From a bacterium (GTDB lineage Bacteria > Planctomycetota > J058 > JAJDCP01), in assembly GCA_030428695.1 (NCBI GenBank), contig JAUIEM010000253.1:1-14604 (forward strand): 14,604 nucleotides of DNA. Reading direction: 5' to 3'. Position 1 is the stretch's first letter. Each line of letters opens with the position of its first letter. Below are positions 813 through 14,604 of this stretch, piece by piece. The position numbers and the translations under genes are program-made. The notes beneath the pieces were generated by a model. The model did no database searches. It worked only from the letters and a program-made list of their open reading frames with translations, and was not told where the DNA came from.

Positions 813-899
813 AAGAAGAGAAGACAGAAGAGAAGGCAGAGAAGAAAGCAGAAGAGAAGGCTTCGTATCTTCTTCGCGCCTTGCTCTTGGCGCCTTGGC
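802..899. repeat. 15-bp perfect inverted repeat around a purine-rich loop
   Basis: The left arm 802-816 (GCCAAGGCGCCAAGA) is the exact reverse complement of the right arm 885-899 (TCTTGGCGCCTTGGC). The left arm lies at the end of the third tandem unit. The 68-base interior is purine-rich to 860 and pyrimidine-rich afterwards, so the whole segment has mirror strand asymmetry and could extrude a long imperfect hairpin. The core GGCGCC is itself palindromic. Possible roles are a dispersed repeat (REP/MITE-like), a transcription or mRNA structure, or a DNA-structure element. The sequence does not decide between them. Confidence 0.8.
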
Positions 900-951
900 T
901 TCCTGGCACCCGTGGCGATTTCGTTTCCTGTTCCTTCCAAAGGCCGTCGCG

Positions 952-981
952 TTTTCATCGAGAGCACCGAGCCACTATGGT
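952..981 (+). promoter_or_regulatory. Candidate promoter for the TPR kinase
   Basis: TTTTCA (952-957) is followed after 18 bp by TATGGT (976-981). The transcript would start near 988, just ahead of the Shine-Dalgarno run at 986-996. This geometry favours the ATG at 1004 over the in-frame ATG at 977, which would lie inside the -10 box. Confidence 0.4.
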
Positions 982-985
982 GGGT

Positions 986-996
986 GAGGAGGAGGA
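986..996 (+). promoter_or_regulatory. Ribosome binding site that sets the start at 1004
   Basis: GAGGAGGAGGA ends seven bases before the ATG at 1004, an ideal distance. The upstream in-frame ATG at 977 has no comparable purine run before it. The N-terminal alignment with the divergent kinase also begins at the 1004 start. Confidence 0.7.
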
Positions 997-1003
997 ACTC
1001 CCG

Positions 1004-4000
1004 ATGCCCCTCGCCGACGCAGAGCTTTCCGAGCTGTGGCGCGACTCGCTCGCCCGGGAGCTCGACGGACTCGACGCCGACGCGACCTACCGGACCGGCG
1101 CGGCGCCGCGCGTCGGGGTCCCGACCCGGGCGGAGGAGGAGCGCTTCGCGGTCGGCGAGGAGCTCGGCCGCGGCGGCATGGGCACGGTCTTCCGGGCGCG
1201 GCAGAGCAGCCTCGAGCGGGACGTCGCGCTCAAGCAGCTCGGGGGGGCGGGCCGCCATGGAAGCACCGCGCGCCTGCGCGACGACTTCCTCTCCGAGGCG
1301 CTGATCACCGGCCAGCTCGAGCATCCGAACATCGTCCCCGTCCACGACCTCGGGTTGAACCCCGACGGCGAGCTCTTCCTCGCGATGAAGCTGGTTGACG
1401 GCGAGAGCTGGCGCGCGCTCTTGCGCCGCGAGCCCGACGCGCTGCTGCGCCATCTCGACATCCTGCTGCAGGTCTGCAACGCCGTCGCCTTCGCGCACAG
1501 CCGCGGCATCGTGCACAACGACCTCAAGCCCTCGAACGTGATGCTCGGGGCCTTCGGCGAGGTGCTCGTGCTCGACTGGGGCGTCGCGACGCGGCTCGAG
1601 GAGGACGGGCGGGTGCGGGCGGCGGTCGACCTGTGTACCCCGTGCGGCACGCCGGCGTACATGGCCCCCGAGCTCGCCGAGGGGCGGGGACGCGACATCG
1701 GGCCGTGGACGGACACCTACCTGCTCGGCGCGGTGCTCTACGAGATCCTGAGCGGGCGTCCGCCCCATTCCGGCAAGAAGTTCCTGCAGGTGATCCTGTC
1801 CGCCGCGCGCGGACGCTTCCCCCCACTGCCCGCCGACGCCCCGGAAGACCTCGCCGCCATCTGCCGCCGCGCCCTCGATCCCGACCCCCGGGCGCGCTAT
1901 CCGAGCGTCGCCGCGCTGCAGGAGGAGCTGCGGCGCTTCCTGTTGCACCGCGAGAGCCTCGAGATCGTCGCCCGCGCCAGCCTCGAGCTCGAGCGCTGTG
2001 CCGCCCAGTTCGACCGGCTCGGTTCCCTCGAGGCCGGCGCCCGCGACGCGCTGTACGCCAGCCTGGACACGACCGTCGCGGCCTTCGCCCAGGCCCGCTC
2101 GGTGTGGCCGGAGAACCCGCGCGCCGGGCGCGGGGAGGCCGAGGCCCGGCGGCTCTACGCCGACACGGCGCTGCGCCTGGGCGACGTCGAGCTCGCCTCC
2201 TCGCAGGTCGCCCGGCTCGAGGCCGTCGGCGGCCCGCCCGGCGAGCTGCGCGCGCGCGTCGACCGCGCTCGCGTGGCCCAGCGCCGGGCGCGTCGCAGCG
2301 CGCGGCGCCTGCGCTGGACGGCGGCGGGGCTGCTGCTGCTGCTGGTGTGCGCCCTGGGCCTGGGGCTGGTGGTGGTGGTGGGGCAGCGCGCCGAGGTCGT
2401 CGCCGAGCGCGACCTCGCCCGGCAGCGCGGAGCGATCGCTCAGGACGCCCTCGAGGACATGACCCAGGGCGTGTTCGACACCCTCGTCGATCACGGCAGC
2501 ACGGGCACCCACGGCCTCGCCCGCGAGCTGCTGGTCGTCGCCCGCAAACATCTCGAGCGCCTCGCCGAGCTCGAGCGCGAGCCCTCGAGCCTGTCGCTGC
2601 TCGGGGCGCGGGCCCGCGTCCGGCTCGGCGACCTCAAGCTGCAGATCGAGGGCGACCTCGACGGCGCGGACTCCCTCTACGCCTCGGCCCTGACGGCGCT
2701 CGAAGCGCTGCGCGCCGAGCTCGGCGAGCAGCTCGACTTCCACCTCTCGCAGGTGCGCGCCCGGCGGGGCGAGGTGGTCTGGCAACGCGGCGAGGTCGAG
2801 GCGGCGCGGAGGATTTTCGAGGCCGAGCTGGTCGCGCTCGGGCGCTTCTCCCACGTCAACGCTCGGCGCCAGCGCTCCCTCGTGCTCGAGCGCCTGACCG
2901 AGGCGCGGCGCGACACCGGCGACCTGCAGGGGGCGCTCGAGGCGGCCCGGCAGAGCGTCACCCTCGACCGCAAGCTGCTCGCGGAGTTCCCGGGCAACCG
3001 CCAGTTCAAGGAGGACCTCAGCCACTCCCTCGGCATGGTCGGCGAGCTGCTGCTCGAGCTCGGGCGCTTCGACGAGGTCGAGGACGACCTCGCCGCGGCG
3101 GAACGCCTGGCGCGCGACCTGGTGGCCAGCGGCGAGGACATCGGCCCCCAGCTCGCCCTGGCGGCCGCCCTGCTGCGGCGCTCCAGCCTCGACAAGCAGC
3201 GCGAGCAGGTCGATGCGGCGGCGGCGCGTCTCGACGAGGGGCTGTCGCTGCTCGAGGGGGTCTGCGCGCGCGACCCGACCCACGCCGAGGCCCGTCTGCG
3301 GATCGCGATGAACCTGGTCGAACGCGGGCGCGTCGCGATCCTGCAGGACAGCCTGGCGCTCGGCAGCCGGGTCTTCGCCCGGGCCGAGGCGGTGTGCCGG
3401 GCGCTGCCCGCCGCCGCGCGCTCGGTGCACGTGACCACCACCCTGGCCGAGGCCCTGCTCGCGCGCTCGCGCCTGTGCCGTCTCGAGCTGGACAACGCGC
3501 GGGCCCGGGCGCTGACCCGGGAGGCCCGGAGTCTGCTCGGCGGGCTGCTCGCGCGCTCCCCGGGGGTCGCGCGCGCCTTCCTCTACGCCCGGGCCTGCCT
3601 CGAGCTCGCTTTTCTCTCCCTGCGGGCCGACCCTGCGGCGGCGCGGGCGCTGTTCCTCGAGGCCGAGGAACACCTCTCGGAGGGGAGCTGGCGGGCGAGC
3701 CCGGCGGCCCACCTCGAAGCGGCCCAGGCGCTGCTCTACGCGCTGCCCGCCGCGCCGCTCGAGCGCCAGGCCGCGCTCGCCGATGCGACCCTTGCGCTGG
3801 TCGAAGGGGCCCGGCAGCAGGCCCCGGACCATCCCCAGTACGTGCTCGTGCTCGTGTCGATGCTCAACGACATCGGCAACCAGGCCTTCGCGGAGGGCGC
3901 GTTGGAGCGGGCCGAGGCGCTCTACCGGGAGGGCCTGGAGGGGACCGAGGAGCTCGCGGCGCGCCAGGTGGACTACCGCAGCCACCGGCTGTTCGACGCG

Positions 4001-5386
4001 ATCCTGCGGGTCAACCTCGGCAACATCGCGGCCGAGCGCGGCGCGGTCGACGAGGCCCGCGCCTGGTACGCCGAGGGGCTCGCGCGCTGGCCCGCTCCGC
4101 ACACGCCCACCGGCAGCCTCGACTTCGCGGAGGCGCTACGCAACTGCGCCGCCCTCGCCCTCGACCAGGGGACGCTCGAGGAGGCCGCGGCGCTGCTCGA
4201 GCGGGCGCGTGCGCTGCTGCTTCCCCTGCTGCCACGCCTGGCGGAGAGCCCGCGGCTGCGGCGGGTGAGCCGGCGGGTGCTGGCCAACTGGCTCGACACG
4301 CGCTTCGACCTCGACGATCCACAGGTCGCGGACCACGCCCGGGAGCTGTGGGAGCTCGCTCGCCCCGACCTCGAGCGCGGCAACCTCGAGCTGGCTGGCC
4401 TGGCCCGCGCGGCGCTGGAGGTGCTGGCGGCGCGCCTCGAGACCGCGGCGGGCCTCGAGGCGGTCGATCGCGAGCATCGGCGCCTGCTGGGCGTGCTCGC
4501 CGGGCAGCCCCGCGCGCCGGAGCGGGCCGAGCTCGAGGCCTTCGCCCTCCACAACCTCGGACGCTCGGCAGGGCGCCGGGGGGAGGTCGAGGCGGCGGCG
4601 CGGCTGCTGCGCGAGGCGGTCGAGGCCCAGCAGCGGGGCGACCTGGGGCGCCCGGCGGCGCGGCTCGAGCTCGCGGCCTACCGGACCAGCCACGGCTTCG
4701 CCGAGCTGCTGTGCGGGCGCGCGGGTCCCGGCGCGGCGGCGCTGGTCGGCGCCGACAGCCTGCTGACCGCGCTCGAGGGCAGCGCCGAGCCCGCGGAGCA
4801 CGCCTCGGTCGCCCTCCGCCACACCTACTGCGCCGCCTTCGCCGGGCTGCTCGGGGCCGAGGAGGCGACCCGCAGGATGCTCGAGCTCGCCGCGCGGCTC
4901 GAGGTCTCCACGCCCCAGGCCGACGACGCGGTCGAGGGCATGGCGCGGCTGCTCGACGCCGCGGGCCGTGAGCGCTACGGGGCGGACGATCTGCCCGGCG
5001 CGCGCCTCGCCTTCGGTCGCGCGGTCGCGTTGTGGCGGCTGCTGCACCGTTGGGATGCCGGGCCGGAGGTCGGCGCGGAGCTCGGGCTCGTCGTCGGCAA
5101 GCTCGGGGCGGTCGCGTTGGAGAAGGGGGAGTTCGCGGAAGCGGCCGCGCACGCGGCCGAAGCCGTCGAGCTGCTCAGCGCCAGCGCGGATCCCGAAGCG
5201 CTGTTCTACAGGGCGCGCATGCTCCAGCAGCAGCTGATCGCGCTGTGCGGGGCGGAGCGCTTCGACGAGGCGCGGGAGGTCCTCGCCCGCTTCGAGGCGC
5301 TCGGTGAAGGGCTCGCGGCGGAGGATCCCGCCCAGGCGGACTGGCACGCGCAGGCGTTGCGCGACCTCGCGGGGCTGGTGGAGTAG
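1004..5386 (+). CDS. Membrane Ser/Thr kinase with ~1000-residue TPR-like C-terminal region
   Basis: This is a 1460-aa receptor-type kinase. Residues 1-48 are a leader (L8, W12, L16, ATYR at 27-30) shared with the divergent kinase. The kinase domain spans about 49-320: GRGGMG (55-60), K77, catalytic loop HNDLKPSN (171-178, with Asn in place of the usual Arg), D191-W192-G193 in place of DFG, and APE (221-223). All residues needed for catalysis (K77, D173, N178, D191) are present. A basic stretch precedes one hydrophobic membrane segment (about 438-460). The remaining roughly 1000 residues are Ala/Leu/Glu-rich helical pairs with degenerate TPR spacing (for example AEALYREGLEG and ARAWYAEGLARW), predicted outside the membrane. 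HND and DWG variants combined with TPR arrays are familiar in planctomycete and myxobacterial kinases. The likely role is sensing protein partners through the TPR region and signalling inward; ligand and substrate are unknown. Frames further upstream (557-976) lie in repeats and were not included. Confidence 0.92.
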   Translation: MPLADAELSELWRDSLARELDGLDADATYRTGAAPRVGVPTRAEEERFAVGEELGRGGMGTVFRARQSSLERDVALKQLGGAGRHGSTARLRDDFLSEALITGQLEHPNIVPVHDLGLNPDGELFLAMKLVDGESWRALLRREPDALLRHLDILLQVCNAVAFAHSRGIVHNDLKPSNVMLGAFGEVLVLDWGVATRLEEDGRVRAAVDLCTPCGTPAYMAPELAEGRGRDIGPWTDTYLLGAVLYEILSGRPPHSGKKFLQVILSAARGRFPPLPADAPEDLAAICRRALDPDPRARYPSVAALQEELRRFLLHRESLEIVARASLELERCAAQFDRLGSLEAGARDALYASLDTTVAAFAQARSVWPENPRAGRGEAEARRLYADTALRLGDVELASSQVARLEAVGGPPGELRARVDRARVAQRRARRSARRLRWTAAGLLLLLVCALGLGLVVVVGQRAEVVAERDLARQRGAIAQDALEDMTQGVFDTLVDHGSTGTHGLARELLVVARKHLERLAELEREPSSLSLLGARARVRLGDLKLQIEGDLDGADSLYASALTALEALRAELGEQLDFHLSQVRARRGEVVWQRGEVEAARRIFEAELVALGRFSHVNARRQRSLVLERLTEARRDTGDLQGALEAARQSVTLDRKLLAEFPGNRQFKEDLSHSLGMVGELLLELGRFDEVEDDLAAAERLARDLVASGEDIGPQLALAAALLRRSSLDKQREQVDAAAARLDEGLSLLEGVCARDPTHAEARLRIAMNLVERGRVAILQDSLALGSRVFARAEAVCRALPAAARSVHVTTTLAEALLARSRLCRLELDNARARALTREARSLLGGLLARSPGVARAFLYARACLELAFLSLRADPAAARALFLEAEEHLSEGSWRASPAAHLEAAQALLYALPAAPLERQAALADATLALVEGARQQAPDHPQYVLVLVSMLNDIGNQAFAEGALERAEALYREGLEGTEELAARQVDYRSHRLFDAILRVNLGNIAAERGAVDEARAWYAEGLARWPAPHTPTGSLDFAEALRNCAALALDQGTLEEAAALLERARALLLPLLPRLAESPRLRRVSRRVLANWLDTRFDLDDPQVADHARELWELARPDLERGNLELAGLARAALEVLAARLETAAGLEAVDREHRRLLGVLAGQPRAPERAELEAFALHNLGRSAGRRGEVEAAARLLREAVEAQQRGDLGRPAARLELAAYRTSHGFAELLCGRAGPGAAALVGADSLLTALEGSAEPAEHASVALRHTYCAAFAGLLGAEEATRRMLELAARLEVSTPQADDAVEGMARLLDAAGRERYGADDLPGARLAFGRAVALWRLLHRWDAGPEVGAELGLVVGKLGAVALEKGEFAEAAAHAAEAVELLSASADPEALFYRARMLQQQLIALCGAERFDEAREVLARFEALGEGLAAEDPAQADWHAQALRDLAGLVE

Positions 5387-5445
5387 GTCTGCCGGCGCCG
5401 CGCAGCGCGCGCGCCCGCCCGGCACCCCCCGGCGTGTTCCGGTAG

Positions 5446-5480
5446 GCCCGCGCCCGGGCTGGCGCGCGTCGGCGGGCTTT
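5446..5480 (+). terminator. Weak terminator-like hairpin after the TPR kinase
   Basis: GCCCGC (5446-5451) pairs with GCGGGC (5472-5477) around a 20-base GC-rich loop and is followed by only three T residues. It lies 60 bp after the stop codon of the TPR kinase. In DNA this GC-rich such a stem can occur by chance, so the call is tentative. The T residues overlap the promoter candidate for the next kinase. Confidence 0.2.
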
Positions 5481-5507
5481 GCGCTGCGCGGCCTCCGGCC
5501 CTAGTCT
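5478..5507 (+). promoter_or_regulatory. Candidate promoter for the pentapeptide/HEAT kinase
   Basis: TTTGCG (5478-5483), an 18-bp spacer and TAGTCT (5502-5507) give a possible promoter with a leader of about 45 bases before the GTG at 5559. The 172-bp gap after the previous gene makes independent transcription reasonable. Both boxes are imperfect. Confidence 0.3.
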
Positions 5508-5558
5508 GGGGGTGGAGGAAGCGCGCGCTCGGCGCGGCTCCGGGTCCGGGGAGACGCC

Positions 5559-8042
5559 GTGGAGCAGGAAGTCGACAAGACCTACGCCGCGCTGCGCCTG
5601 TGGTGCGCGGCCCGCTCCCAGACCGGGGTCTCCCTCAGCCTCGGCCTCGACCAGCTCGACGCCCTGTCCCTGAGCATGACCCTGTCCGCGCTGTTGCAGC
5701 GGCTCGACGAGGCCAAGGAGATGTCCTCGCGGGTGCTCGCCCACGCCGGGGCGAAGACCAAGGACTTCGACTCGAGCGCCGCCCTGTCCGTCGATCCGGC
5801 GGCGCTGCCCTCGAGGCGGGCGGCGATGGCCGAAGAGCCCGACCTGCCCGTGCGCAAGGACGAGCGCTTCGAGATCGTCGGGGCGATGGCCGGCGGCATG
5901 GGCGTGGTGACGATCTGCTACGACCACGCCCAGCGCTTCCCCTTCGCGATCAAGACCTTCCGCGACGACGTCTTCCTGCACGACGTCTCCACCCTGGCCT
6001 CGTTCACCCGCGAGGCGCGCATCTGGACCGGCCTCGGCCGCCATCCCCACATCGTACGGGCCTACGGGACGCGGCTGATCGAGGATGTGCCCTACCTGTT
6101 CCTCGAGTGCGTGCCCGGTCCGACCCTGAAGGACCTCCTGCGCAAGGGCCCGTTCAGCCCCGCGGACGCGGTCGAGGCGGCGCTGCAGGTGTGCTCGGCC
6201 CTGCGCTACGCGCGCGGGGTGGTGCACGGCGACCTCAAGCCCTCGAACCTGCTGTTCCACCGCGGCGCGGTCAAGGTGACCGACTTCGGCCTCGCCCGCG
6301 ACCTCTTCCGCCAGCGCCAGCGCTCCGGCGCCGCCGGCACCCCGCCCTACATGGCCCCGGAGCAGTGGAGTGGCGTCGGACTGTCCGAGCGCACCGACGT
6401 CTACGCCCTCGGCACCGTGCTGTACGAGCTGCTCGCCGGCCACCGCCCGTACCAGTACGACAGCATCGAGGAGTACAGGGAACAGCGCACCCGCGCCGAG
6501 CCGCCGCCCGCCATCCCGCTCGCCGCCCCCTGGTCCGCCCTGAACGAGCTCTTGACGCGCTGCCTGGCCAAGCCCCAGGAGGCGCGCCCCTCGCTGCGCG
6601 CGCTGCAGCGACACCTGCGGGCGATCGCCCGGCCCGAGGAGGCGCAGCGGGTCGAACGGGACGTGCCGCGGCGCAGCGTGGTCGGCTTCTTCCAGGGGCT
6701 GGCCGAGCGCTTCCGCGAGCGGCGCCGGGTCCGCGAGGTGCTCGCCTTCGGCAGCGACTACGCCGGCGGCATCGAGGAGGCGATCCGGCGCCAGCTGAAG
6801 ACCCTCTCCCGGCGCAAGCTGCGGGACTGGGACGTGCAGCGCCTGCTCGCCCTGTCCAAGCTGCGCGACGCCCATCCCCAGGCCTTCGCCGGCTGGTCGG
6901 CGGCGAGCCTGGACTTCCTCGGCGTGCGGCTGGCGGGGCGCGACCTGCGGCGGGCCTTCCTGCCGGACGCCGACCTCGCGGGCCTCGACCTGTCGGGCTC
7001 GGACCTGCGCGGGGCCTGCCTGCGCGGGGCGGTGCTCGCGGGCGCCGACCTGCGGCGCAGCAAGCTGCGCTGGGCCGACCTGTCCTCGGCCGAGCTCGCC
7101 GGCGCCCAGCTCGAGAAGGCCGACCTGCGCAAAGCCGACCTGCGAGGCGCGCGGCTGGCGGAGACCGACCTGCGGGGCTGCCAGCTGGCCGGGGCGAACC
7201 TGCGCGGGGCGGCGCTGTTCGAGAGCCGCCTCGACCTGTCGGCCCTGCCCTCGATCGCCGAGCTGCTCGCCGCCCCCGAGCGCGAAGCGCGGCTCGGCGC
7301 CCTCGGCCTGCTCGGCCGCATCGGGCCGCATCCGCGGGTGCTGGTCGCGCTGCTCAAACCTCTGCGCGACCCCGACGAGACGATCTGGGTGCGGGCGGCC
7401 CATCAGCTCGCCCACTTCGGCCCCGAGGCGGCGAAGGTCGCGCCGCTGCTGCTGCGGCGGGCGGCGGAGGCCTCGCCGGGCAGCCGCATCGCCCTCGTCG
7501 AGGTGCTCGCGAGCATCGGTGACTTCCGCACCACCGTGCCCCTGCCCTACGAGGCCTGGCGCCAGGCCCTCGACGAGCAGCACGCGCGGGCGGCGGCGAG
7601 CTGGGGAGACGAGGGCACCCGGGTCGTGCGCTTCCTGGTCTCCTGCCTGCACGCCCCCCAGATCCGCCTCCGGGTCGCCGCCGCGACCGCCCTCGGCCAG
7701 GTGCGCCCGCGGCTCGAGCTCGCGGTCACCGCCCTGCGCCAGGCCCTCGGCCTCGAGCGCGAGGTCGCCCTGGCCGCCGCCCGGGCCCTCGGCGAGCTGG
7801 CGCCCCTGGCCACCGCCGCCGTGCCCGAGCTCAACGCCGGGCTGCGGCGGGACGACCCCGAGCTGCAGGTCGCGCTGCTCGACAGCCTCGCCCGGCTCGG
7901 CCCGAGCGCCCGCACGGCGATCTCGCGCATGCGGCTGCTGGCCGAGGCGGAGGATGGGGATGTGCGGAAAGCGGCGGAGCGGGCGCTGCAGGCGCTCGCG
8001 AGCGGGCCCGAAGGGCGGGACCCCGCGGTCAGCCCCGGCTGA
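5559..8042 (+). CDS. Ser/Thr kinase fused to 22 pentapeptide repeats and HEAT-like repeats
   Basis: This is an 827-aa protein with no visible signal peptide or membrane segment, so probably cytosolic. The GTG start is preceded by GGGGAG at seven bases. Residues 1-100 are a helical leader unlike that of the TPR kinase. The kinase domain follows: a GGMG loop (112-115, with Met110 where the first loop glycine normally sits), K132, HGDLKPSN (223-230), D242-F243-G244 and A266-P267-E268. Catalytic Asp225 is present; the Arg of HRD is Gly. Residues 452-561 form 22 consecutive pentapeptides with central Leu or Phe, predicted to fold as a right-handed beta-helix. From about 565 to 820 are HEAT-like helix pairs, apparently in two blocks. 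Both are protein-binding scaffolds. The gene overlaps the opposite-strand kinase by 14 bp. The likely role is a scaffold-bound signalling kinase; substrate unknown. Confidence 0.92.
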   Translation: MEQEVDKTYAALRLWCAARSQTGVSLSLGLDQLDALSLSMTLSALLQRLDEAKEMSSRVLAHAGAKTKDFDSSAALSVDPAALPSRRAAMAEEPDLPVRKDERFEIVGAMAGGMGVVTICYDHAQRFPFAIKTFRDDVFLHDVSTLASFTREARIWTGLGRHPHIVRAYGTRLIEDVPYLFLECVPGPTLKDLLRKGPFSPADAVEAALQVCSALRYARGVVHGDLKPSNLLFHRGAVKVTDFGLARDLFRQRQRSGAAGTPPYMAPEQWSGVGLSERTDVYALGTVLYELLAGHRPYQYDSIEEYREQRTRAEPPPAIPLAAPWSALNELLTRCLAKPQEARPSLRALQRHLRAIARPEEAQRVERDVPRRSVVGFFQGLAERFRERRRVREVLAFGSDYAGGIEEAIRRQLKTLSRRKLRDWDVQRLLALSKLRDAHPQAFAGWSAASLDFLGVRLAGRDLRRAFLPDADLAGLDLSGSDLRGACLRGAVLAGADLRRSKLRWADLSSAELAGAQLEKADLRKADLRGARLAETDLRGCQLAGANLRGAALFESRLDLSALPSIAELLAAPEREARLGALGLLGRIGPHPRVLVALLKPLRDPDETIWVRAAHQLAHFGPEAAKVAPLLLRRAAEASPGSRIALVEVLASIGDFRTTVPLPYEAWRQALDEQHARAAASWGDEGTRVVRFLVSCLHAPQIRLRVAAATALGQVRPRLELAVTALRQALGLEREVALAAARALGELAPLATAAVPELNAGLRRDDPELQVALLDSLARLGPSARTAISRMRLLAEAEDGDVRKAAERALQALASGPEGRDPAVSPG
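8029..8042. repeat. Palindromic overlap holding both stop codons of convergent kinases
   Basis: TCAGCCCCGGCTGA has six-base arms (TCAGCC/GGCTGA) around CC. Its right end is the TGA of the plus-strand kinase and its left end is the complement of the TGA of the minus-strand kinase. The palindrome exactly equals the overlap between the two coding regions. It could act as a small two-way hairpin at the convergence point, or be chance. Confidence 0.8.
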
Positions 8043-8991
8043 GCGCCACCAACACCAGGGCCAGCAGCGCGATCCCGAAGCCGGCCCCGATGGCGAGCCG
8101 CCAGACCGGCAGCCGCAGCCGGCTCGGCAGCCGGGGCTCGCGGCGCACCCGCACGCGTTTGAGGTTCTGCAGCAGCTCCTCGCCGTCGCGGAAGCGCCGG
8201 CGCGGGTCCTTCTCGAGGCAGCAGGCGAGCAGCTTGACGAGGTTCTCGGGGACGTCGTCGCGGGGCGGGAACTCCGGACGGGAGCGCAGGGTGCGCTTGA
8301 GCTGGCGCACGACCGAGGCGTCGGCGAAGGGGCTCTGGCCGTACAGGGCGTGGTAGAGGGTCGCGCCGGCGCTGTACACGTCGGCGGCGGGGCCGACCGC
8401 CTTGAAGCTCTCGATCTGCTCCGGGGGCATGTATTCGGGGGTGCCCATGCAGGTGTCGCGGCTGGTCAGGCCGCTGCCGGCGTCGAGCTTGACCATGCCG
8501 AAGTCGGTCAGCTTGACCTCGCCGGCGCTGCCGAGCAGCACGTTGGCGGGCTTGACGTCGCGGTGCACGAGCCTGGCCTGGTGGATGTGCGCGAGGGCGC
8601 GGGCGAGGCCGATGCCGATGCGGAGGATCTCGTCGACATCGAGCTTTTTCTCGATCGCGGTCGCGAGGTCACCGCCGTCGACGAGCTCCATCACCAGGTA
8701 GGGGACGCCGGCGTAGCTGTCGCTCTCGTAGACCTCGACGATGTTCGGATGCCGCAGGCCGGTCGCCGTCTCGGCCTCGCGGGCGAAGCGGCGGACCGCT
8801 TCCTTATCGCGGGCGATGTTCTTCGCGATGATCTTGACCGCGACCGCGCGCTGCACGGGGGAGTGCTGCCGGGCGCGCAACACGGCGGAGCTCGGGGTGC
8901 TCGCCAGGCGGCCCTCGACGGTCAGGCGCGGAAACACCTCCGACAGCGGGGTGTCGTACAGCGAGCGCTGCTCCGTCGCCGACCCGGCCAC
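8029..8991 (-). CDS. Tail-anchored Ser/Thr kinase with a glycine-less nucleotide loop
   Basis: This is a 320-aa protein: a bare kinase domain (about 20-280), a basic linker (about 279-297, RVRVRREPRLPSRLR region) and one C-terminal hydrophobic helix (about 298-318) with only a couple of residues after it, as in tail-anchored proteins. VAVK gives K53; H143-R144-D145, K148, N150 and D163-F164-G165 are all intact, so catalysis looks possible. The glycine-rich loop is missing: the segment that should read LGxGGxG is LASTPSS (29-35). The APE motif is PPE (189-191). The GTG start at 8991 has GAGGGG five bases upstream; an ATG at 8996 is out of frame. The gene lies 75 bp downstream of rfbD on the same strand, with its own TACAAT box in the gap. 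It probably phosphorylates membrane-proximal targets, which are unknown. Confidence 0.92.
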   Translation of the reverse strand: MAGSATEQRSLYDTPLSEVFPRLTVEGRLASTPSSAVLRARQHSPVQRAVAVKIIAKNIARDKEAVRRFAREAETATGLRHPNIVEVYESDSYAGVPYLVMELVDGGDLATAIEKKLDVDEILRIGIGLARALAHIHQARLVHRDVKPANVLLGSAGEVKLTDFGMVKLDAGSGLTSRDTCMGTPEYMPPEQIESFKAVGPAADVYSAGATLYHALYGQSPFADASVVRQLKRTLRSRPEFPPRDDVPENLVKLLACCLEKDPRRRFRDGEELLQNLKRVRVRREPRLPSRLRLPVWRLAIGAGFGIALLALVLVALSRG

Positions 8992-9029
8992 TGCATCCCC
9001 TCGCTGTACGGACGTGCCCGTAGAACCTG

Positions 9030-9051
9030 ACGAAACAAACCGCCGTTTCGT
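9030..9051 (-). promoter_or_regulatory. Hairpin in the leader of the tail-anchored kinase
   Basis: ACGAAAC (9030-9036) and GTTTCGT (9045-9051) form a 7-bp stem with an 8-base loop. It lies after the rfbD stop and before the kinase start. No T-run follows on the minus strand, so it is not a classical terminator. It could protect or attenuate the kinase message, or be an operator. Confidence 0.4.
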
Positions 9052-9059
9052 TGCATCAA

Positions 9060-9065
9060 ATTGTA
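9060..9065 (-). promoter_or_regulatory. Candidate -10 box for the tail-anchored kinase
   Basis: TACAAT on the minus strand (complement of ATTGTA) lies in a locally AT-rich patch between rfbD and the kinase. Transcription would start near 9053, giving a roughly 60-base leader that contains the hairpin. No convincing -35 box lies at 16-18 bp, where rfbD coding sequence constrains the bases. Confidence 0.35.
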
Positions 9066-9066
9066 C

Positions 9067-9939
9067 TTAAGTGTCTTCGGTCGCCGCCAGCCCACGCTCC
9101 AGCGCGTCCTGCCAGGGGGCAGGCGTGTGGCCGGTCCAGGCGGTGTAGCGGGCGGTGTCGAGGGCGGAGTACGCCGGGCGGGTGGCGGCGCGGCCGAGCT
9201 CTGCGCGCCCGATCGGCTGCACCGCGTCGGGGTCGAGGCCGGCCAGACGGGCGAGGGCGCGGGCCTGCTCGAAGCGGCTGGTCACGCCGCTGTTGACGAA
9301 GTGGCACAGGCCGCGGGCCTGTGGGCAGTCCAGCAGCCGCACGATGCCGTCGGCGAGGTCGCCGTGAAAGGTCGGGCAGCCCCACTCGTCCTCGACCACC
9401 CGCGCCTCGCCGCGCTCGCGCAGCACCCGCAGGATCGCCGCCGGGAAGCCGCTGCCGCCGCGTCCGAACAGCCACGCCGTGCGCACGACGAGGCCCTCGG
9501 GCAGGGCGGCGAGGAAGCGCCGCTCGCCCTCGAGCTTGGTGCGCCCGTACGCGTTGAGGGGGCCGGTCGGATCTTCCGGGAGATACGGGCGCCGCAGCGC
9601 GCCGTCGAAGACGTAGTCGGTCGAGACGTGCAGGGCGCGGGCGCCGCGTCGGGCGGCGACCCGGGCGACGGCCGCGGCGCCCCCGGCGTTGACCGCGCGG
9701 GCGCCGGCCTCGTCAGCCTCGGCCGCGTCGACCGCGGTCCAGGCCGCCGCGTTGAGCAGCGCGGTCGCGCCGAGCGCTTCCGCTTCCGCTGCGATCGCCT
9801 GCTCGACGTCGGCGCGGGCGAGGTCGACGGTCGCCCGGGTGGTACCGGCGCAGGCGATCCCCCGCGCTTCCAGGCAATGCAGCAGCTCGCGGCCGAGGCG
9901 GCCGCCCGCGCCGATGACGAGGACGCGCGGCTCAGGCAT
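9067..9939 (-). CDS. rfbD: dTDP-4-dehydrorhamnose reductase
   Basis: This 290-aa short-chain dehydrogenase of the RmlD family reduces dTDP-4-dehydro-L-rhamnose to dTDP-L-rhamnose with NAD(P)H, the last step of dTDP-rhamnose synthesis in the cytoplasm. GAGGRLG (10-16) is the nucleotide-binding loop. LNAAAWTAVDAAE (62-74) matches the RmlD signature. STDYVFDG (106-113) supplies the catalytic Thr107, and Y131-x3-K135 is the SDR catalytic pair. DEWGCPT (184-190) and RPAYSALD (254-261) are further family motifs. Length is normal. The gene overlaps the upstream FHA gene by 8 bp (ATGCCTGA) and has no clear ribosome site, so it is probably translationally coupled. No rfbA, rfbB or rfbC lies in the window, so the other pathway steps must be encoded elsewhere. 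A related sugar reductase of the same fold is a lesser possibility. Confidence 0.9.
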   Translation of the reverse strand: MPEPRVLVIGAGGRLGRELLHCLEARGIACAGTTRATVDLARADVEQAIAAEAEALGATALLNAAAWTAVDAAEADEAGARAVNAGGAAAVARVAARRGARALHVSTDYVFDGALRRPYLPEDPTGPLNAYGRTKLEGERRFLAALPEGLVVRTAWLFGRGGSGFPAAILRVLRERGEARVVEDEWGCPTFHGDLADGIVRLLDCPQARGLCHFVNSGVTSRFEQARALARLAGLDPDAVQPIGRAELGRAATRPAYSALDTARYTAWTGHTPAPWQDALERGLAATEDT

Positions 9940-11116
9940 TCTGGCGGGCGTCGCGGCGTGCCTCGGAGCCGGGGAACAGCGTGAAGATGCTCTTGAGCAT
10001 CTCGCCGGCGCCGGAGTAGCGGTTGGCCGCGTTCGGGTCGGTGGCGCGCTGGATGATGTAGGCGAGCTGCGGCGAGCAACGCAGCCCGAGCATGCCGGAC
10101 TCGCTCGCGCTCGGCAGCTCGGGCCGGCCCGAGACCGCGTGGTAGGCGGTGACCCCGAGGGAGAAGATGTCGCAGCGGGTGTCCGCCGCGGTCGGGTTGG
10201 CGACGAACTCCGGCGCGGTGTAGTTCGTCTCGCGGATCGAGCTCGGGACGAGCGTGGCGCAGCCGACGGCCTGGCCGAAGTCGCTGAGGTACGACCAGCC
10301 GCGCCGGTCGTAGAGGATGTTCGAGGGCTGCACGCTGCCGTGCACCTGGCCGCGGGAGGCGGCCTTGCCGATTGCGGGCAGCAGGTCGATCATGAAGCAG
10401 ATCGCCTGCCGCTCTTCGACCTTCCCGTAGTTCTTCAGGTAGGCCTGCAGGCTACCGCCATCGATGAACTCCGAGGCGATGAACACCAGCCCGTTCCAGA
10501 AGTCGACCTCGTGCACCTTGACCGCGCCCGTCGTCGACACCGCGAAGCGCGCGCGCAGGTCGGGCACCACCTGGGTCGCCTCCTGGTCGCTGAGGCGCCG
10601 GGTTTTCAGCACCTTGAGGGCGCAGTTGCCGGTGCTGTCGGGGTTGCGGGCCAGGTACACCCAGCCGCGCGGGCCCTCGCCGAGCGGACGCAGCAGCTGG
10701 TAGTTCTTGACCCACTGGTCGGCGGACTTCGCCTTGAGGCAGCGCTCGCACTCGGCCTGCTTGTAGTCGATCGCCACCGGCTTGCCGCAGGTCGCGCAGA
10801 ACTTCGAGCTCTGCGGCGGGCCCTCGCGGGTGGTGACGCGCAGGATGACGTAGCCGAGGGAGATCAGGTCGCCGCCCTTGAGGCGCTGGCTGTGGACCTG
10901 GATGCCGTTGACGAAGGTGCCGTTGGAGCTGCGCATGTCGGTGACCATCAGCCCCGACTCATCGTACTTGACCATCAGATGCCGGCGCGACAGGCTCGGG
11001 TCATCGATCGCGACCTGACACTTCGGCGAGCGGCCGAAGATCAGGGATGAGCCATAGGGAATGGGAATGGTCCGGACAGAAGAACCATCGCGGATGACTT
11101 CAACCGAAGCTTCCAT
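9932..11116 (-). CDS. FHA domain, four-cysteine zinc ribbon and kinase-fold pseudokinase
   Basis: This is a 394-aa cytosolic protein. Residues 1-95 are an FHA domain, a phosphothreonine-binding module, with its conserved residues visible: G28-R29-S30, S43-R44-R45-H46 and S64-N65-G66-T67. C107/C110 and C123/C126 form a small zinc-ribbon-like knuckle. From about 138 a kinase fold follows: GEGPRG (146-151), K168, D279-F280-G281 and A301-P302-E303. The catalytic loop reads HGSVQPSN (259-266), so the catalytic Asp is Ser261 and the conserved Lys of DLKP is Gln263. Phosphotransfer is therefore unlikely, though ATP could still bind through K168 and D279. No membrane segment is seen. The ATG at 11116 has GAGG just upstream. 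The stop overlaps rfbD by 8 bp. It is best read as a phospho-reader and allosteric pseudokinase, possibly serving the neighbouring kinases; that partnership is inferred. Confidence 0.9.
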   Translation of the reverse strand: MEASVEVIRDGSSVRTIPIPYGSSLIFGRSPKCQVAIDDPSLSRRHLMVKYDESGLMVTDMRSSNGTFVNGIQVHSQRLKGGDLISLGYVILRVTTREGPPQSSKFCATCGKPVAIDYKQAECERCLKAKSADQWVKNYQLLRPLGEGPRGWVYLARNPDSTGNCALKVLKTRRLSDQEATQVVPDLRARFAVSTTGAVKVHEVDFWNGLVFIASEFIDGGSLQAYLKNYGKVEERQAICFMIDLLPAIGKAASRGQVHGSVQPSNILYDRRGWSYLSDFGQAVGCATLVPSSIRETNYTAPEFVANPTAADTRCDIFSLGVTAYHAVSGRPELPSASESGMLGLRCSPQLAYIIQRATDPNAANRYSGAGEMLKSIFTLFPGSEARRDARQNA

Positions 11117-11174
11117 GGAACCTCAGGCGCGTTCTCCGAGGACGTTGGTGTGGCGCTGCGACACGTGCTCCGCC

Positions 11175-11180
11175 ATTGTA
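11175..11180 (-). promoter_or_regulatory. Candidate -10 box for the FHA-pseudokinase/rfbD unit
   Basis: TACAAT on the minus strand (complement of ATTGTA) lies 59 bp before the ATG at 11116. A start near 11168 would give a leader of about 50 bases. The same hexamer occurs before the tail-anchored kinase. No strong -35 is seen. The 189-bp divergent spacer (11117-11305) must hold promoters for both strands. Confidence 0.4.
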
Positions 11181-11195
11181 TTCCGACCCGGGGAG

Positions 11196-11226
11196 TTTAC
11201 ACTGGTTTCGCCTCGCGCGCCAGAAT
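11196..11226 (+). promoter_or_regulatory. Weak promoter candidate for tsaB
   Basis: TTTACA (11196-11201) and CAGAAT (11221-11226) are separated by 19 bp, longer than ideal. The leader would be about 70 bases. It is the best plus-strand pair I found in the spacer before tsaB, but the support is thin. Confidence 0.2.
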
Positions 11227-11305
11227 CCGCTGATCCCGCCCCCACGGGCGCGGGACGGACGAGCGGCGGGCGTGAAGCGGCTGAGAAAGGCGGGCAAAAC
11301 AGACG

Positions 11306-11995
11306 ATGGACACGCCCTGGATCCTCGGCATCGAGACCTCCGGTCCGGTCGGCAGCGTCGCCCTCGGCGACGGGAACGGCGAGCCCCTGGCTATCGAGCT
11401 CCCGGAGTCGCGCCGCTTCGCCGCGGCCCTGCCCGGAGCGGTCGCCGAGCTGCTCGCCCGCGCCCGCATCCAGGCCGAGGAGCTCTCGGCCCTCGCCGTC
11501 GGCTGCGGCCCCGGCAGCTACACCGGCATGCGCGTCGGCGCCGCCCTGGCCAGCGGCCTGGCCCGCGGCTGCGGGGCCGAGCTGGTCGGGGTGTGCAGCT
11601 TCGACGCCTGGGCCGCCGCCCTGGTCGGCGTCCATCAGGGGTCGCTGCTCGTCGCCGCCGACGCCCGGCGCAAGCGCGTGTACGAGGCCCGCTACGCGCT
11701 CGCGGAGGGCTGGAGCGCGACGCGGGCCCCCGCGATCACCGCCGTCTCGGCCCTCGGCCTGACGGCGCCCTTCCCCTACGTCAGCGCCCGGCCCCTGGCC
11801 GCCCTCGACGCCTGCGGCGGGGTGCGCCTGCAGGCCCCGCCCGCGCCGCCCGCCGCCGAGCTGATCGCGGTCGTGCGCGGGGGCGGCGGCGTGCGGGTGC
11901 CCGCCGGCGCGCCGCTCGGCCTGCGGCCGCTGTACCTCAAGGCGACCGAGGCGGAGGAGCGGGCCGGAAAAGTCGTCGTCGCCTTCGGCGGTTGA
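11306..11995 (+). CDS. tsaB: tRNA threonylcarbamoyladenosine biosynthesis protein TsaB
   Basis: This 229-aa member of the ASKHA/Kae1-like fold is the non-catalytic partner of TsaD. With TsaE it supports transfer of the threonylcarbamoyl group to A37 of ANN-decoding tRNAs in the cytoplasm. The start WILGIETSG, the signature GPGSYTGMRVG (68-78) and DARRKRVYEARY (119-130) are diagnostic. The length is typical of TsaB and shorter than TsaD. No strong Shine-Dalgarno precedes the ATG; AAAGG lies about 15 bases upstream, so initiation may be weak. The usual companions rimI, tsaE and tsaD are absent from the window. It stands divergently from the FHA-pseudokinase gene and 75 bp before the AraC gene. 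Confidence 0.93.
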   Translation: MDTPWILGIETSGPVGSVALGDGNGEPLAIELPESRRFAAALPGAVAELLARARIQAEELSALAVGCGPGSYTGMRVGAALASGLARGCGAELVGVCSFDAWAAALVGVHQGSLLVAADARRKRVYEARYALAEGWSATRAPAITAVSALGLTAPFPYVSARPLAALDACGGVRLQAPPAPPAAELIAVVRGGGGVRVPAGAPLGLRPLYLKATEAEERAGKVVVAFGG

Positions 11996-11998
11996 TCC

Positions 11999-12026
11999 GA
12001 TCCTGCGGGATGCTTGCCCGATCCTG
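11999..12026 (+). promoter_or_regulatory. Putative AraC-family operator, copy A
   Basis: Two identical half-sites GATCCTG lie at 11999-12005 and 12020-12026, 21 bp apart, the centre-to-centre distance known for AraC half-sites. Positions 11999-12025 match 14027-14053 at 22 of 27 bases, including an unbroken CTTGCCCGATCCT (12013-12025). The site lies 32 bp before the TATGAT box of the AraC gene, so it is well placed for autoregulation. Confidence 0.55.
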
Positions 12027-12058
12027 TGGACGGCGCCCCGCCTCGCGGCGACATCCGC

Positions 12059-12064
12059 TATGAT
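12059..12064 (+). promoter_or_regulatory. TATGAT -10 box, possible leaderless start of the AraC gene
   Basis: TATGAT ends six bases before the ATG at 12071. The expected transcription start therefore falls on or next to the A of the start codon. No Shine-Dalgarno sequence precedes this ATG, as expected for a leaderless message. No good -35 box is present, which fits a promoter needing an activator. Confidence 0.5.
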
Positions 12065-12070
12065 GGCGCC

Positions 12071-12967
12071 ATGAGCGCCTCCGAGCTGATCCGCCTCGTC
12101 CACGACGCCGCGCCCCGCGCCGGCTCCAACGCCACGGCCCTGCCCGGGGTGGTGATCTACCGCGCCGACGAGCCTAGCGAGCGCCGCGCCTGCCTGTACG
12201 ACCCCTGCCTGATGATCGCGGCCCAGGGACGCAAGACCGGCTACGTCCGGGGCCAGGCTTTCAGCTACGACCCGGAGCAGCTGCTCGTGCTGTCGGTGCC
12301 GCTGCCCCTCGACTGCGTGATCGAGCGCGCCTCCCCCGAGGAGCCCTACCTCGCGGTCAAGGTCTCCCTCGAGCCGCGGGTCGTGCGCGAGGTCGTCCTC
12401 GCGGCGGGCCAGCAGGCCCCGGAGGAGATGCAGGCGGCGATCCGCACCTCGCCGCTGACCGACGCCCTGCGCGCGTCGACCATCCGCCTGCTGCGCGCCC
12501 TCGCCGACGAGCGCGACGCCCGGGTGCTCGGGCCGCTGTGCGTGCGGGAGCTGTACTACCGGGTGTCGTGCGGGCCGCAGGGCGGCTTCCTGCGCGCCCT
12601 CGCCCTCGGCCACAGCCACTCGCGCGCGATCGCCCGGGTGCTGCGGCGCATCCACGCGCGCTTCGACGAGCCCTTCGAGGTCGCGGCGGCGGCGCGGGAG
12701 GCGCACATGGCCGTGTCGACCTTCCATCACGCCTTCAAGGCCGCGACCGCGATGTCGCCCCTGTCCTACGTCAAGTCGATCCGCCTGCATCAGGCCCGCT
12801 CGCTGATGCTCGACGACGGGCTGACCGCCGCCGAGGCCTCCTACCGGGTCGGCTACAACAGCCCGTCCCAGTTCAGCCGCGAGTTCAAGCGCCTGTTCGG
12901 CCTGCCGCCGGGAGCCGAGCTCGAGCGTCTGCGCGCCGAGCTCGCGCCCTCGGCTTCCCGCCGCTGA
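12071..12967 (+). CDS. AraC-family transcriptional regulator
   Basis: This is a 298-aa regulator. The N-terminal half fits the AraC_N type (PF06719-like): an LMIAAQGRK strand, a Y-D-P-E-Q-L-L-V-L-S-V-P-L-P-L segment and an E-E-P-Y-L-A-V-K-V segment. The C-terminal part (about 202-280) is the double helix-turn-helix, with MAVSTFHHAFKAATAMSP (first HTH) and YRVGYNSPSQFSREFKRLFG (second HTH), matching the AraC consensus closely. I chose the ATG at 12071 over a TTG at 12014 because homology starts there and a TATGAT box sits just before it. The gene is 75 bp after tsaB and ends 6 bp from the convergent aldo/keto reductase. Regulators of this subtype often sit beside oxidoreductase genes that they control. 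A shared 27-bp site before both genes supports that here. The inducer is unknown. Confidence 0.93.
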   Translation: MSASELIRLVHDAAPRAGSNATALPGVVIYRADEPSERRACLYDPCLMIAAQGRKTGYVRGQAFSYDPEQLLVLSVPLPLDCVIERASPEEPYLAVKVSLEPRVVREVVLAAGQQAPEEMQAAIRTSPLTDALRASTIRLLRALADERDARVLGPLCVRELYYRVSCGPQGGFLRALALGHSHSRAIARVLRRIHARFDEPFEVAAAAREAHMAVSTFHHAFKAATAMSPLSYVKSIRLHQARSLMLDDGLTAAEASYRVGYNSPSQFSREFKRLFGLPPGAELERLRAELAPSASRR

Positions 12968-12970
12968 GCG

Positions 12971-12980
12971 CCGCTAGCGG
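12971..12980. repeat. Short palindrome between convergent AraC and reductase genes
   Basis: CCGCTAGCGG is a perfect 10-bp palindrome centred on the junction of the two convergent genes and contains the TAG stop (complement CTA, 12974-12976) of the reductase. It is too short and lacks a T-run for a standard terminator. Confidence 0.5.
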
Positions 12981-13969
12981 TCGATCGCCCGCATGTCGGG
13001 GTAGCGCTGGCCGGCGGCCGCGCCGATCGGTAGGATCGCCTCGAGCCGCGCGCGCTCCTCGGCGCTGAGCTCGATGCTGCCGGCGGCGGCGTTCTGTGCG
13101 AGCCGGTCGAGGTTGGTCGTGCCGGGGATGCAGGCGACCCCCGGGCGGCTGAGCACGAAGGCGAGCGCGAGCTGGGCGGCGGTGCAGCCCTTCTCCTCGG
13201 CGAGGGCCTTGACCTCCTCGACCAGGGCGAGGTTCTTCGCGAAGTTCTCGCCGCGGAAGCGCGGGTTCGTGCGCCGCCAGTCGTCCTCGGGCAGGTCGTC
13301 GGCGGTCTGGAAGCGGCCGGTCAGGAAGCCGCGGCCGAGGGGGCTGTAGGCGACGAACACGATGCCGAGCTCGCGGCAGGTGGCGAGCAGCTCCTCCTCG
13401 GGCTCCCGGGACCACAGGGAATACTCGGTCTGCAAGGCGGCGATCGGGTGGACGGCGGCGGCCCGGCGGATGGTCGCCGGCGCGGCCTCGGACAGGCCGA
13501 GGTAGCGGACCTTGCCTGCCCGCACCAGCTCGGCCATCGCGCCGACGGTGTCCTCGATCGGGGTGTTCGGGTCGACGCGGTGCTGGTAGTAGAGGTCGAT
13601 GGTCTCGACGCCGAGCCGCTGCAGGCTCGCCTCGCAGGCCTGCTTGACGTACTCCGGCCGGCCGGAGATGCCGGTGAAGGAGCCGTCCTCGCCCCGCATC
13701 ACGGAGAACTTCGTCGCGAGCACCGCCTGCTCGCGCCGCGCGCCGGCCAGGGCCTTGCCGACCAGCCGCTCGTTGGCGCCGCTGCCGTACATGTCCGCGG
13801 TGTCGAACAGGTCGACGCCGAGCTCGAGGGCGCGGTGGATCACGCCGATCGAGGCGCTCTCGCGGGCCGCGAGGGCGTCTTTGCTTCCATAGAACTCACT
13901 CATCCCCATGCAGCCGAGACCGACCGCGGAGAACTCCGGGCCGTCGGGCCCGAGTCGCAGTTTCTTCAT
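12974..13969 (-). CDS. Aldo/keto reductase, AKR13-like
   Basis: This 331-aa (beta/alpha)8-barrel NADPH-dependent carbonyl reductase is probably cytosolic. The catalytic tetrad is visible: D56 and Y61 in FDTADMYG, K87 in LATKFS, and H130 in DLYYQHRVD. The opening [12 protein letters not shown] (17-28) and [16 protein letters not shown] are typical of the AKR13/YakC-like group of quinone or aldehyde reductases. The ATG at 13969 was chosen because GAGGAGG lies eight bases upstream; a GTG at 13990 would place that ribosome site inside the gene. The stop lies 6 bp from the end of the AraC gene. A TATCCT box and a copy of the putative AraC operator precede it, so AraC control is likely. The natural substrate cannot be read from sequence; detoxification of reactive carbonyls is a reasonable guess. 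Confidence 0.94.
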
Positions 13970-13977
13970 CGCAGGTT

Positions 13978-13984
13978 CCTCCTC
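13978..13984 (-). promoter_or_regulatory. Ribosome binding site that sets the reductase start
   Basis: GAGGAGG on the minus strand ends eight bases before the ATG at 13969. It falls within the potential GTG-initiated extension starting at 13990, which argues for the shorter protein. Confidence 0.75.
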
Positions 13985-13992
13985 TGGCACCC

Positions 13993-13998
13993 AGGATA
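13993..13998 (-). promoter_or_regulatory. Candidate -10 box for the aldo/keto reductase
   Basis: TATCCT on the minus strand would start transcription near 13986, giving a leader of about 17 bases that just includes the ribosome site. No clear -35 box lies at 16-18 bp, which fits a promoter that depends on an activator. Operator copy B begins 29 bp upstream. Confidence 0.4.
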
Positions 13999-14026
13999 GG
14001 GGGCGCGGGGAAGGCCGAACAGGGGA

Positions 14027-14054
14027 GGTCCTGCCGAAGCCTTGCCCGATCCTC
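14027..14054 (+). promoter_or_regulatory. Putative AraC-family operator, copy B
   Basis: The half-sites GGTCCTG (14027-14033) and GATCCTC (14048-14054) are 21 bp apart. The segment 14027-14053 matches copy A (11999-12025) at 22 of 27 positions, including 13 unbroken bases (14041-14053). It lies between the divergent reductase and the exported-protein gene, and could control either. Its orientation relative to the reductase is opposite to that of copy A relative to the AraC gene. Confidence 0.5.
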
Positions 14055-14091
14055 TACGCGCTTCGTGGGCGGGGTGGCGCGCGATTCCTGA

Positions 14092-14111
14092 CCGCGGCTT
14101 GCGAGCCGCGG
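14092..14111. repeat. 8-bp perfect hairpin overlapping a -35 box
   Basis: CCGCGGCT (14092-14099) and AGCCGCGG (14104-14111) form a perfect stem around TGCG. It covers the TTGCGA (14099-14104) proposed as the -35 box of the exported-protein gene. It may be a repressor site or a DNA structure; no T-run follows, so it is not an obvious terminator. Confidence 0.55.
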
Positions 14112-14127
14112 ACCGCACGCCTACCTT
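14099..14127 (+). promoter_or_regulatory. Candidate promoter for the exported protein
   Basis: TTGCGA (14099-14104), a 17-bp spacer and TACCTT (14122-14127) would start a transcript near 14134, about 25 bases before the ATG at 14159. Confidence 0.4.
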
Positions 14128-14158
14128 TGCAGGAAGCGCACTCCTTCGGGAGGTTCCG

Positions 14159-14604
14159 ATGTCCCGCACGCCTCTTCTGCTGTCGCTGCTCGCCTTCGCC
14201 CTCGTCCCCCTTCAGGCCGACGAGCCAGCCCTCGACCTGCGGGGACGGATCGAACGCAAGACCAGCCAGAGCTTCCAGCTCCCCGCCGAGCGCAAGGGGA
14301 TGTGGCACATCAGCCTCGAGGGCGACACCGACGGCGTCGACCTCGACCTGACCGCGCGGAACGGCGAGGAGCGCTGGCGCAGCCGCGGGAAGAAGGCCTC
14401 CGAGCAGCTGTTCGTGCCGAGCCGGCGGCCCGTCGAGGTCGTCGTCGAGCACTACCGCGGCGGCGCCTCGGGCTTCCGCCTGGTCGCGACCCACGTCTCC
14501 CCGGACAGCAAGCTGCGCGGCGGCAAGGAGCAGAGCGGCGCCCTCGACGCGACGGGCGACGCCTTCGCCCTGCACGAGCTGACCGGCTCGCGCAAGCGCT
14601 ACTT
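14159..14604 (+). CDS. Exported protein with PPC-like beta-sandwich domain, N-terminal part
   Basis: The first 148 residues of a gene running off the right edge are present. The ATG has GGGAGG six bases upstream. Residues 1-20 are a signal peptide: a short polar start with Arg3, a hydrophobic core LLLSLLAFALV, and likely cleavage after LQA (18-20). The mature part, beginning DEPALDLRGRIERKTSQSF, resembles the bacterial pre-peptidase C-terminal (PPC) domain: a strand with an S-F-Q-L segment, a G-D-T-D-G-V-D-L-D-L core, and a closing G-G-A-S-G-F-R-L strand. After about residue 118 a second similar unit (SGALDATGDAFALHEL) seems to begin. PPC domains are common in secreted planctomycete proteins, often with peptidases. 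Full length and catalytic function are not visible. I recognise no gene name. Confidence 0.8.
   Translation, partial: MSRTPLLLSLLAFALVPLQADEPALDLRGRIERKTSQSFQLPAERKGMWHISLEGDTDGVDLDLTARNGEERWRSRGKKASEQLFVPSRRPVEVVVEHYRGGASGFRLVATHVSPDSKLRGGKEQSGALDATGDAFALHELTGSRKRY

Follow-up and report, generated by a model that had tools for sequence, protein, structure and literature searches.

The 14,604-base-pair (bp) contig JAUIEM010000253.1 of a planctomycete (assembly GCA_030428695.1), which we refer to in its entirety as the window, encodes toward its end a regulator of the AraC family and, transcribed convergently with it, an aldo/keto reductase (AKR). Each of the two genes is preceded by a copy of the same DNA element, designated here site 1 (before the regulator gene, which we call araC) and site 2 (before the AKR gene), and in our judgment these copies are very probably a real operator pair of the regulator encoded at 12071–12967. 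The regulator matches the AraC_N domain at 151.2 bits (cut-off 24.2) and HTH_18 at 76.5 bits (cut-off 33.6). The reductase matches PF00248 at 262.9 bits over residues 20–312 of 331 and matches seven NCBIfam models, in every case below their curated cut-offs; for the DkgA model the score is 39.8 bits (cut-off 425).

The stretches 11999–12025 (GATCCTGCGGGATGCTTGCCCGATCCT) and 14027–14053 (GGTCCTGCCGAAGCCTTGCCCGATCCT), both in the same orientation on the plus strand, are identical at 22 of 27 bases and have in common the unbroken 13-mer CTTGCCCGATCCT, at 12013–12025 and 14041–14053. An earlier sequence-only reading of this DNA had drawn attention to this agreement, to half-sites that recur at a spacing of 21 bp within each copy (CCGATCCTGCGG/CCGATCCTGTGG in site 1 and GGTCCTG/GATCCTC in site 2), and to the position of one copy before araC and the other before the convergent AKR gene, all of which direct comparison and the coordinates of the spacers bear out. 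The same reading took GATCCT as the recognized unit; the unit is instead TTGCCYRWTYCT, the repeated element extends beyond the 27 bp first described, and the two copies are not equivalent. The 27-base agreement exceeds what shuffling produces: 22 is the highest 27-base identity between the two spacers, and mononucleotide shuffles of both (n = 1000) reached at most 21, twice. The 12-mer TTGCCCGATCCT, with up to two mismatches, matches the window at sites 1 and 2, perfectly in both cases, and nowhere else, but 53 of 200 shuffles also contain at least two such matches; this count by itself is weak evidence, and the case for the site draws its strength from the comparison with relatives (features of the locus are listed in table 1).

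Table 1. Genes and sequence elements around the two sites, in window coordinates
Feature	Position	Strand	Basis or remark
tsaB	11306–11995	+	Stop at 11995, 75 bp before the araC ATG at 12071
Site 1 distal half-site TGATCCGATCCTGC, upstream of the core by 21 bp	11993–12006	+	10.7 bits; begins within the tsaB stop codon
Site 1 core half-site TTGCCCGATCCTGT, facing araC	12014–12027	+	Sequence, composite model
Candidate araC −10 box TATGAT, six bases before the ATG	12059–12064	+	Predicted from sequence
araC, AraC_N (PF06719) plus HTH_18 regulator, 298 amino acids from the ATG	12071–12967	+	Pfam domains
AKR gene, 331 amino acids, PF00248, convergent with araC	12974–13969	−	Pfam domain
Shine-Dalgarno-like GGAGG before the AKR ATG	13978–13982	−	Predicted from sequence
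Predicted AKR −10 box TATCCT, in the family register (−49 to −44 from the core)	13993–13998	−	7.5 bits, highest-scoring of 31 shifts
Site 2 distal half-site AGGGGAGGTCCTGC (weak), at a spacing of 21 bp to its core	14021–14034	+	0.7 bits
Site 2 core half-site TTGCCCGATCCTCT, directed away from the AKR gene	14042–14055	+	Sequence, composite model
Open reading frame without a Pfam match	from 14159	+	189-bp spacer from the AKR ATG at 13969

The regulator belongs to a large family, with at least 2516 proteins related to it at E ≤ 0.001, few of which, to our knowledge, have been studied so far. We compared 80 loci that encode relatives of the regulator (41–49% identity) together with Escherichia coli yqhC, giving 81 loci, and extended this set to the Planctomycetota, where 13 of 294 genomes contain regulator matches at E 1e-30 and all 18 matches were obtained as loci, and to the Acidobacteriota, where matches occur in 48 of 297 genomes at the same threshold and 30 of the 56 matches, mostly the best, were used. 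L112 and L130 duplicate L058 and L001 and were removed, giving 127 loci in total. Neighboring enzymes were typed by tblastn with reference proteins, with a Pfam check on ten representatives. A divergent neighbor from the reference set is present in 65 of the 81 loci, comprising 28 Zn-alcohol dehydrogenases, 27 short-chain dehydrogenases/reductases (SDRs), five YqhD proteins, two AKRs, two flavodoxin-fold proteins, and one cupin; a further six loci have an SDR gene in tandem with araC, and ten have none of the reference set at that place. The element is general to pairs of AraC_N regulators and oxidoreductases rather than specific to AraC and AKR, as had been supposed. Relatives of the regulator with an AraC_N domain and approximately 46% identity are also encoded on plasmids of Klebsiella, Providencia, and Pantoea (among the 25 records listed of 816 with some match).

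When 63 dissimilar upstream regions, the window being one of them, were compared without a preset pattern, a repeat distance of 21 bp stood out, with 10 identical 7-mer pairs in six regions as against zero to five pairs at each of the other distances from 7 to 44. In 73 of the 81 loci the core TTGCCNNNWNCT is found between −250 and +40 relative to the start of araC, and all 77 matches there are on the strand that faces araC, where 2.2 would be expected from the remainder of the loci. Of the eight loci that lack it, six are the tandem loci of Pseudomonas, in which the site precedes the SDR gene; the other two are L075, with 63 bases of upstream sequence, and L040, with the one-base variant TTGCCTATTCTT. 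No exact match to TTGCCCGATCCT occurs in the 80 relatives first compared, the core being variable at its Y, R, W, and Y positions. An alignment of 101 sites, most of them chosen by the core alone, was reduced to 57 non-redundant sites, in which the core columns are conserved by construction and the distal and −10 columns are not. These sites have three parts: the core TTGCC-Y-R-W-T-Y-C-T; at a distance of exactly 21 bp, a degenerate direct repeat of it; and a −10 box (TANNAT) on the opposite strand at −44 to −49, which belongs to the enzyme gene. A-49 is found in 82%, T-45 in 78%, and A-44 in 68% of the 57 sites, all three key bases occur together in 34, and leave-one-out placement of the −10 box gives a shift of 0 in 38; no −10 box at a fixed offset on the araC side is conserved among them. 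Comparison in this way brings out the operator with its geometry, polarity, and −10 register.

Since the distal half-site adjoins the place of the −35 box, this layout is that of class II AraC activation. At araBAD, AraC exemplifies class II activation by AraC-family dimers through direct half-sites spaced 21 bp apart. The window and the family share with that system the 21-bp direct half-sites, a promoter-proximal half-site at −35, and the lack of a recognizable −35 box, and differ from it in the half-site sequence and in having AraC_N in place of the arabinose-binding domain.

We combined the core, the degenerate copy 21 bp away, and the enzyme −10 box at its fixed distance into a composite model with a threshold of 12 bits. 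Built without the window, the model places site 2 (31.0 bits) and site 1 (30.7 bits) first and second among 29,080 positions, with the next position at 2.7 bits. At site 2 the AKR −10 box scores 7.5 bits at shift 0 (rank 12 of 29,194), whereas site 1 has no box in register (−0.2 bits), because the corresponding stretch falls inside tsaB; conversely, the distal half-site is good in site 1 and weak in site 2. These unequal −10 and distal scores give the two copies a specialized appearance, site 2 for the reductase and site 1 for araC. With each locus left out in turn, a composite site above 12 bits is found in 118 of the 127 loci: it faces araC within 320 bp in 109, precedes the SDR gene in the six Pseudomonas loci, scores best at a second gene in L045 and L059, both of which have a further strong site before araC, and is reversed in L136, where it precedes araC with the Zn-alcohol dehydrogenase gene downstream in tandem. 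Relatives with both genes retain the site, as the sequence-only reading requires, though not all of them do. Among loci with a divergent AKR gene, the site is present in L001, L032, L132 (AKR identity 57%, 60%, and 64%), L151, L154, and L128, and scores 10.2 and 7.0 bits in L141 and L147; L153 and L156, in which the AKR gene and araC are in tandem, have no site. L141 and L147 have variant cores (TTGTACAATCCT and TTGTACGATCCT) beside AKR genes of 47% and 46% identity.

The usual arrangement in the family is a divergent enzyme gene and one shared site, and the convergent AKR gene with its own copy in the window departs from it. In divergent loci the site faces araC, so a polarity set by araC and one set by the enzyme are indistinguishable there. 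The six Pseudomonas loci with SDR and araC in tandem (L037, L043, L046, L050, L065, and L066, three of which are among the 57 sites) are therefore informative: in all six the site is reversed before the SDR gene and has all three key −10 bases, and no seed match occurs before araC, so that polarity follows the enzyme gene. Site 2 obeys this polarity with respect to the AKR gene even though that gene is convergent with araC. Second sites of the same geometry, with −10 bases, also precede other genes in L045 (a PF11512 family member), L059, and L031 (small genes without a Pfam match), the second-site gene in L045 and L059 being convergent with araC as in the window, and therefore two separately placed sites are not unique to the window. 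The orientation of site 2 permits an alternative, namely, that it regulates the plus-strand gene at 14159 and not the AKR gene, given that it faces this gene in the same orientation as site 1 faces araC and that its core ends 103 bp before the open reading frame. We consider this unlikely, however, because the conserved promoter of the family is on the other side, where the enzyme is encoded, the AKR −10 box is in register, and the Pseudomonas sites follow the enzyme rather than the gene that is faced.

A second alternative is that the operators belong to another regulator, of which araC is merely the neighbor. In the genomes of seven relatives the core TTGCCYRATYCT has 41 matches (approximately 72 expected at equal base frequencies; the backward-pattern control gives one), 30 of which were scored with a model that omitted the loci through which the genomes were reached. 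Seven score at least 19 bits and all of these adjoin an AraC_N gene; six are the very loci that led to those genomes, and the seventh, the independent one, is L100, a paralogue in a Xanthomonas genome whose core is identical to that of the window. None of the remaining 23 exceeds 15.4 bits, so that the bare core is scattered and the composite site hardly so. The second recognition helix also tends to differ in loci that lack the site: L148, L153, L156, L158, and L159 have no site and all have such a change. The association of changes at K273 and F272 with a missing site involves six loci, one of them truncated, and its p value of 0.0005 at K273 is uncorrected and ignores phylogeny, and we regard the link as suggestive only. 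On the other side, Singulisphaera acidiphila encodes five AraC_N paralogues (L058, L125, L127, L128, and L129), each with a composite site (15.9, 25.1, 34.7, 38.4, and 40.6 bits), and the similarity of these sites makes cross-binding possible; even so, we find it quite improbable that a regulator other than the neighboring one reads the two sites. That the similarity reflects chance or a mobile or structural repeat without a regulatory role can practically be set aside: the 74% G+C of the window makes GC-rich matches cheap, and the 12-mer recurs in many shuffles, but the 27-mer exceeds every shuffle, the model that excludes the window singles out both copies, and the element is conserved beside relatives of the regulator in nearly all loci.

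The best-studied point of comparison is YqhC of E. coli, to which the window regulator is 37% identical (blast). YqhC activates yqhD and dkgA and responds to glyoxal and furfural (PMC5297802), its N-terminal domain is named as AraC_N-type, as in the window regulator, and evolved variants raise the expression of yqhC, yqhD, and dkgA, purified variants binding a yqhD-dkgA promoter probe and leaving a control probe unbound (PMC8262776). Genomic SELEX (gSELEX) gave a single YqhC site, in the yqhC/yqhD spacer (PMC8249747), and a ChIP-exo study reports that YqhC sites show a sequence-specific pattern (Supplementary Figure S4 of PMC8464067). The yqhC/yqhD spacer contains the core TTGCCTATTTCT with CATTTCT 21 bp upstream, like the window operators. 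The probe primers of PMC8262776 map on the E. coli locus (L081) to 2412 and, with one mismatch, to 2539–2562; between them lie the core, at 2520, and the partner half-site 21 bp before it, so the probe bound by YqhC contains the element. The window has the core TTGCCYRWTYCT with its partner 21 bp upstream and, as the presumed target, a reductase, the targets in E. coli being aldehyde reductases. It differs in that its genes are convergent with two operators, whereas those of E. coli are divergent with one shared operator, and in its targets: the AKR is below the DkgA cut-off, and YqhD has no match at E 1e-8 in 9001–14604, the portion searched. For this reason the locus should not be filed as a YqhC divergon; it is ordinary in kind, a YqhC-like AraC_N regulator plus an AKR, each gene with its own operator. 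GliR (PA3027) of Pseudomonas aeruginosa is described as an AraC-type activator whose target is divergent and whose site overlaps −35 (PMC8151288), and in these respects is similar, but the motifs given there (YYGGCGHTDTYSGMC and GGAYAWCGCCG) are unrelated.

Several observations weigh against our interpretation. The window protein was the seed of the sampling, Burkholderiaceae are heavily represented, and just over half of the acidobacterial matches were used. In nine of the 127 loci the composite model does not exceed 12 bits anywhere (L075, L141, L143, L147, L148, L153, L156, L158, and L159), and four of these adjoin an AKR gene (L141, L147, L153, and L156); of the nine, L075 is truncated, and L141, L143, and L147 retain a core plus distal half-site of 13–15 bits. 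The reversed site before araC in L136 has a −10 box without T-45, and those of L032 and E. coli keep A-49 and T-45 and carry G in place of A at −44. The distal half-site of site 2 ranks 310th of 29,180 positions, site 1 lacks an activating geometry toward araC, and for the yqhC promoter a Reg-Seq study did not assign any binding site (PMC7567609).

Taking these together, we favor the operator pair with unequal roles. The comparison across relatives supports the link, proposed in the sequence-only reading, of the regulator to the AKR gene through an AraC-type operator with 21-bp geometry, and the most likely function of site 2 is to drive the reductase by class II activation: it has 21-bp direct half-sites and a −10 box at shift 0, with a weak distal half. 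The autoregulation that completed the proposed regulon is a suggestion that comes from the position of site 1. We envision that a dimer of the regulator would bind at both sites, in each case to two direct half-sites 21 bp apart (the core TTGCCYRWTYCT and the degenerate distal copy) on one face of the helix. At site 2 the distal half-site would abut the place of the −35 box, and the AKR −10 box TATCCT lies as far away as is conserved across the family; at its predicted position, 17 bp from this −10 box, a −35 box would overlap the distal half-site by 1 bp. Upon sensing its ligand, presumably a reactive aldehyde or other electrophile by analogy with YqhC, the regulator would recruit polymerase at site 2 and so activate the AKR gene, and the reductase would remove the ligand that is sensed. 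Site 1, with the araC-facing polarity typical of the family, would autoregulate araC, no enzyme promoter being left on its other side. A scan for a sigma-70-like −35/−10 pair found none for the AKR or araC promoter, which fits an activator-dependent promoter, though it is no proof, and a terminator scan likewise found nothing. The arrangement probably arose from an ancestral divergent pair of araC and AKR genes, the one operator of which is now found in two copies.

The araC protein has 313 amino acids in the protein database, a length that fits a GTG start at 12026 rather than the ATG at 12071, and the araC mRNA may be leaderless, as the candidate −10 box suggests. In L054, L070, L073, and L074 an in-frame araC ATG directly follows the operator core; if this is the start codon, bound regulator would cover its own start, suggesting autorepression in those loci. 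Upstream, a cluster of Ser/Thr protein kinase genes occupies 557–11116; Pfam confirms two of these (8029–8991 and, with an FHA domain, 9932–11116), and two more are judged kinases by the look of their translations. The long frame at 557–5386, which resembles a Ser/Thr kinase, contains near its start a 2.6-copy array of an 80-bp tandem repeat (603–812, 93% matches). A relative of the FHA kinase at 92% is encoded on an NCBI contig of 28.5 kb (P0121), while among the matches listed outside the window no AraC exceeds 65% and no AKR exceeds 74%; the araC-AKR pair may be accessory in the lineage of the window.

The part of the finding with wider reach is a shared operator-promoter code. On balance we think it probable that a single such code is read by the majority of AraC_N (PF06719) regulators, in phyla ranging from Proteobacteria to Acidobacteriota and Planctomycetota. 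It would comprise TTGCCYRWTYCT, its degenerate direct repeat at a spacing of 21 bp, the −10 box of the enzyme gene at a constant offset, and a polarity set by that gene. Our literature searches found no report of a family-wide operator, and a published YqhC half-site may well exist. If the code is as we propose, the targets of thousands of uncharacterized regulators could be read from DNA alone: a readable operator with a fixed promoter geometry predicts which oxidoreductase is controlled, even where the target is rearranged or not adjacent, like the convergent AKR gene here, and turns the question of the ligand into a simple reporter test. It would also follow that paralogues in one genome have a common code and must be kept apart by other means, which raises the question of how regulators with similar operators, such as those encoded by the five AraC_N genes of Singulisphaera, avoid cross-talk.

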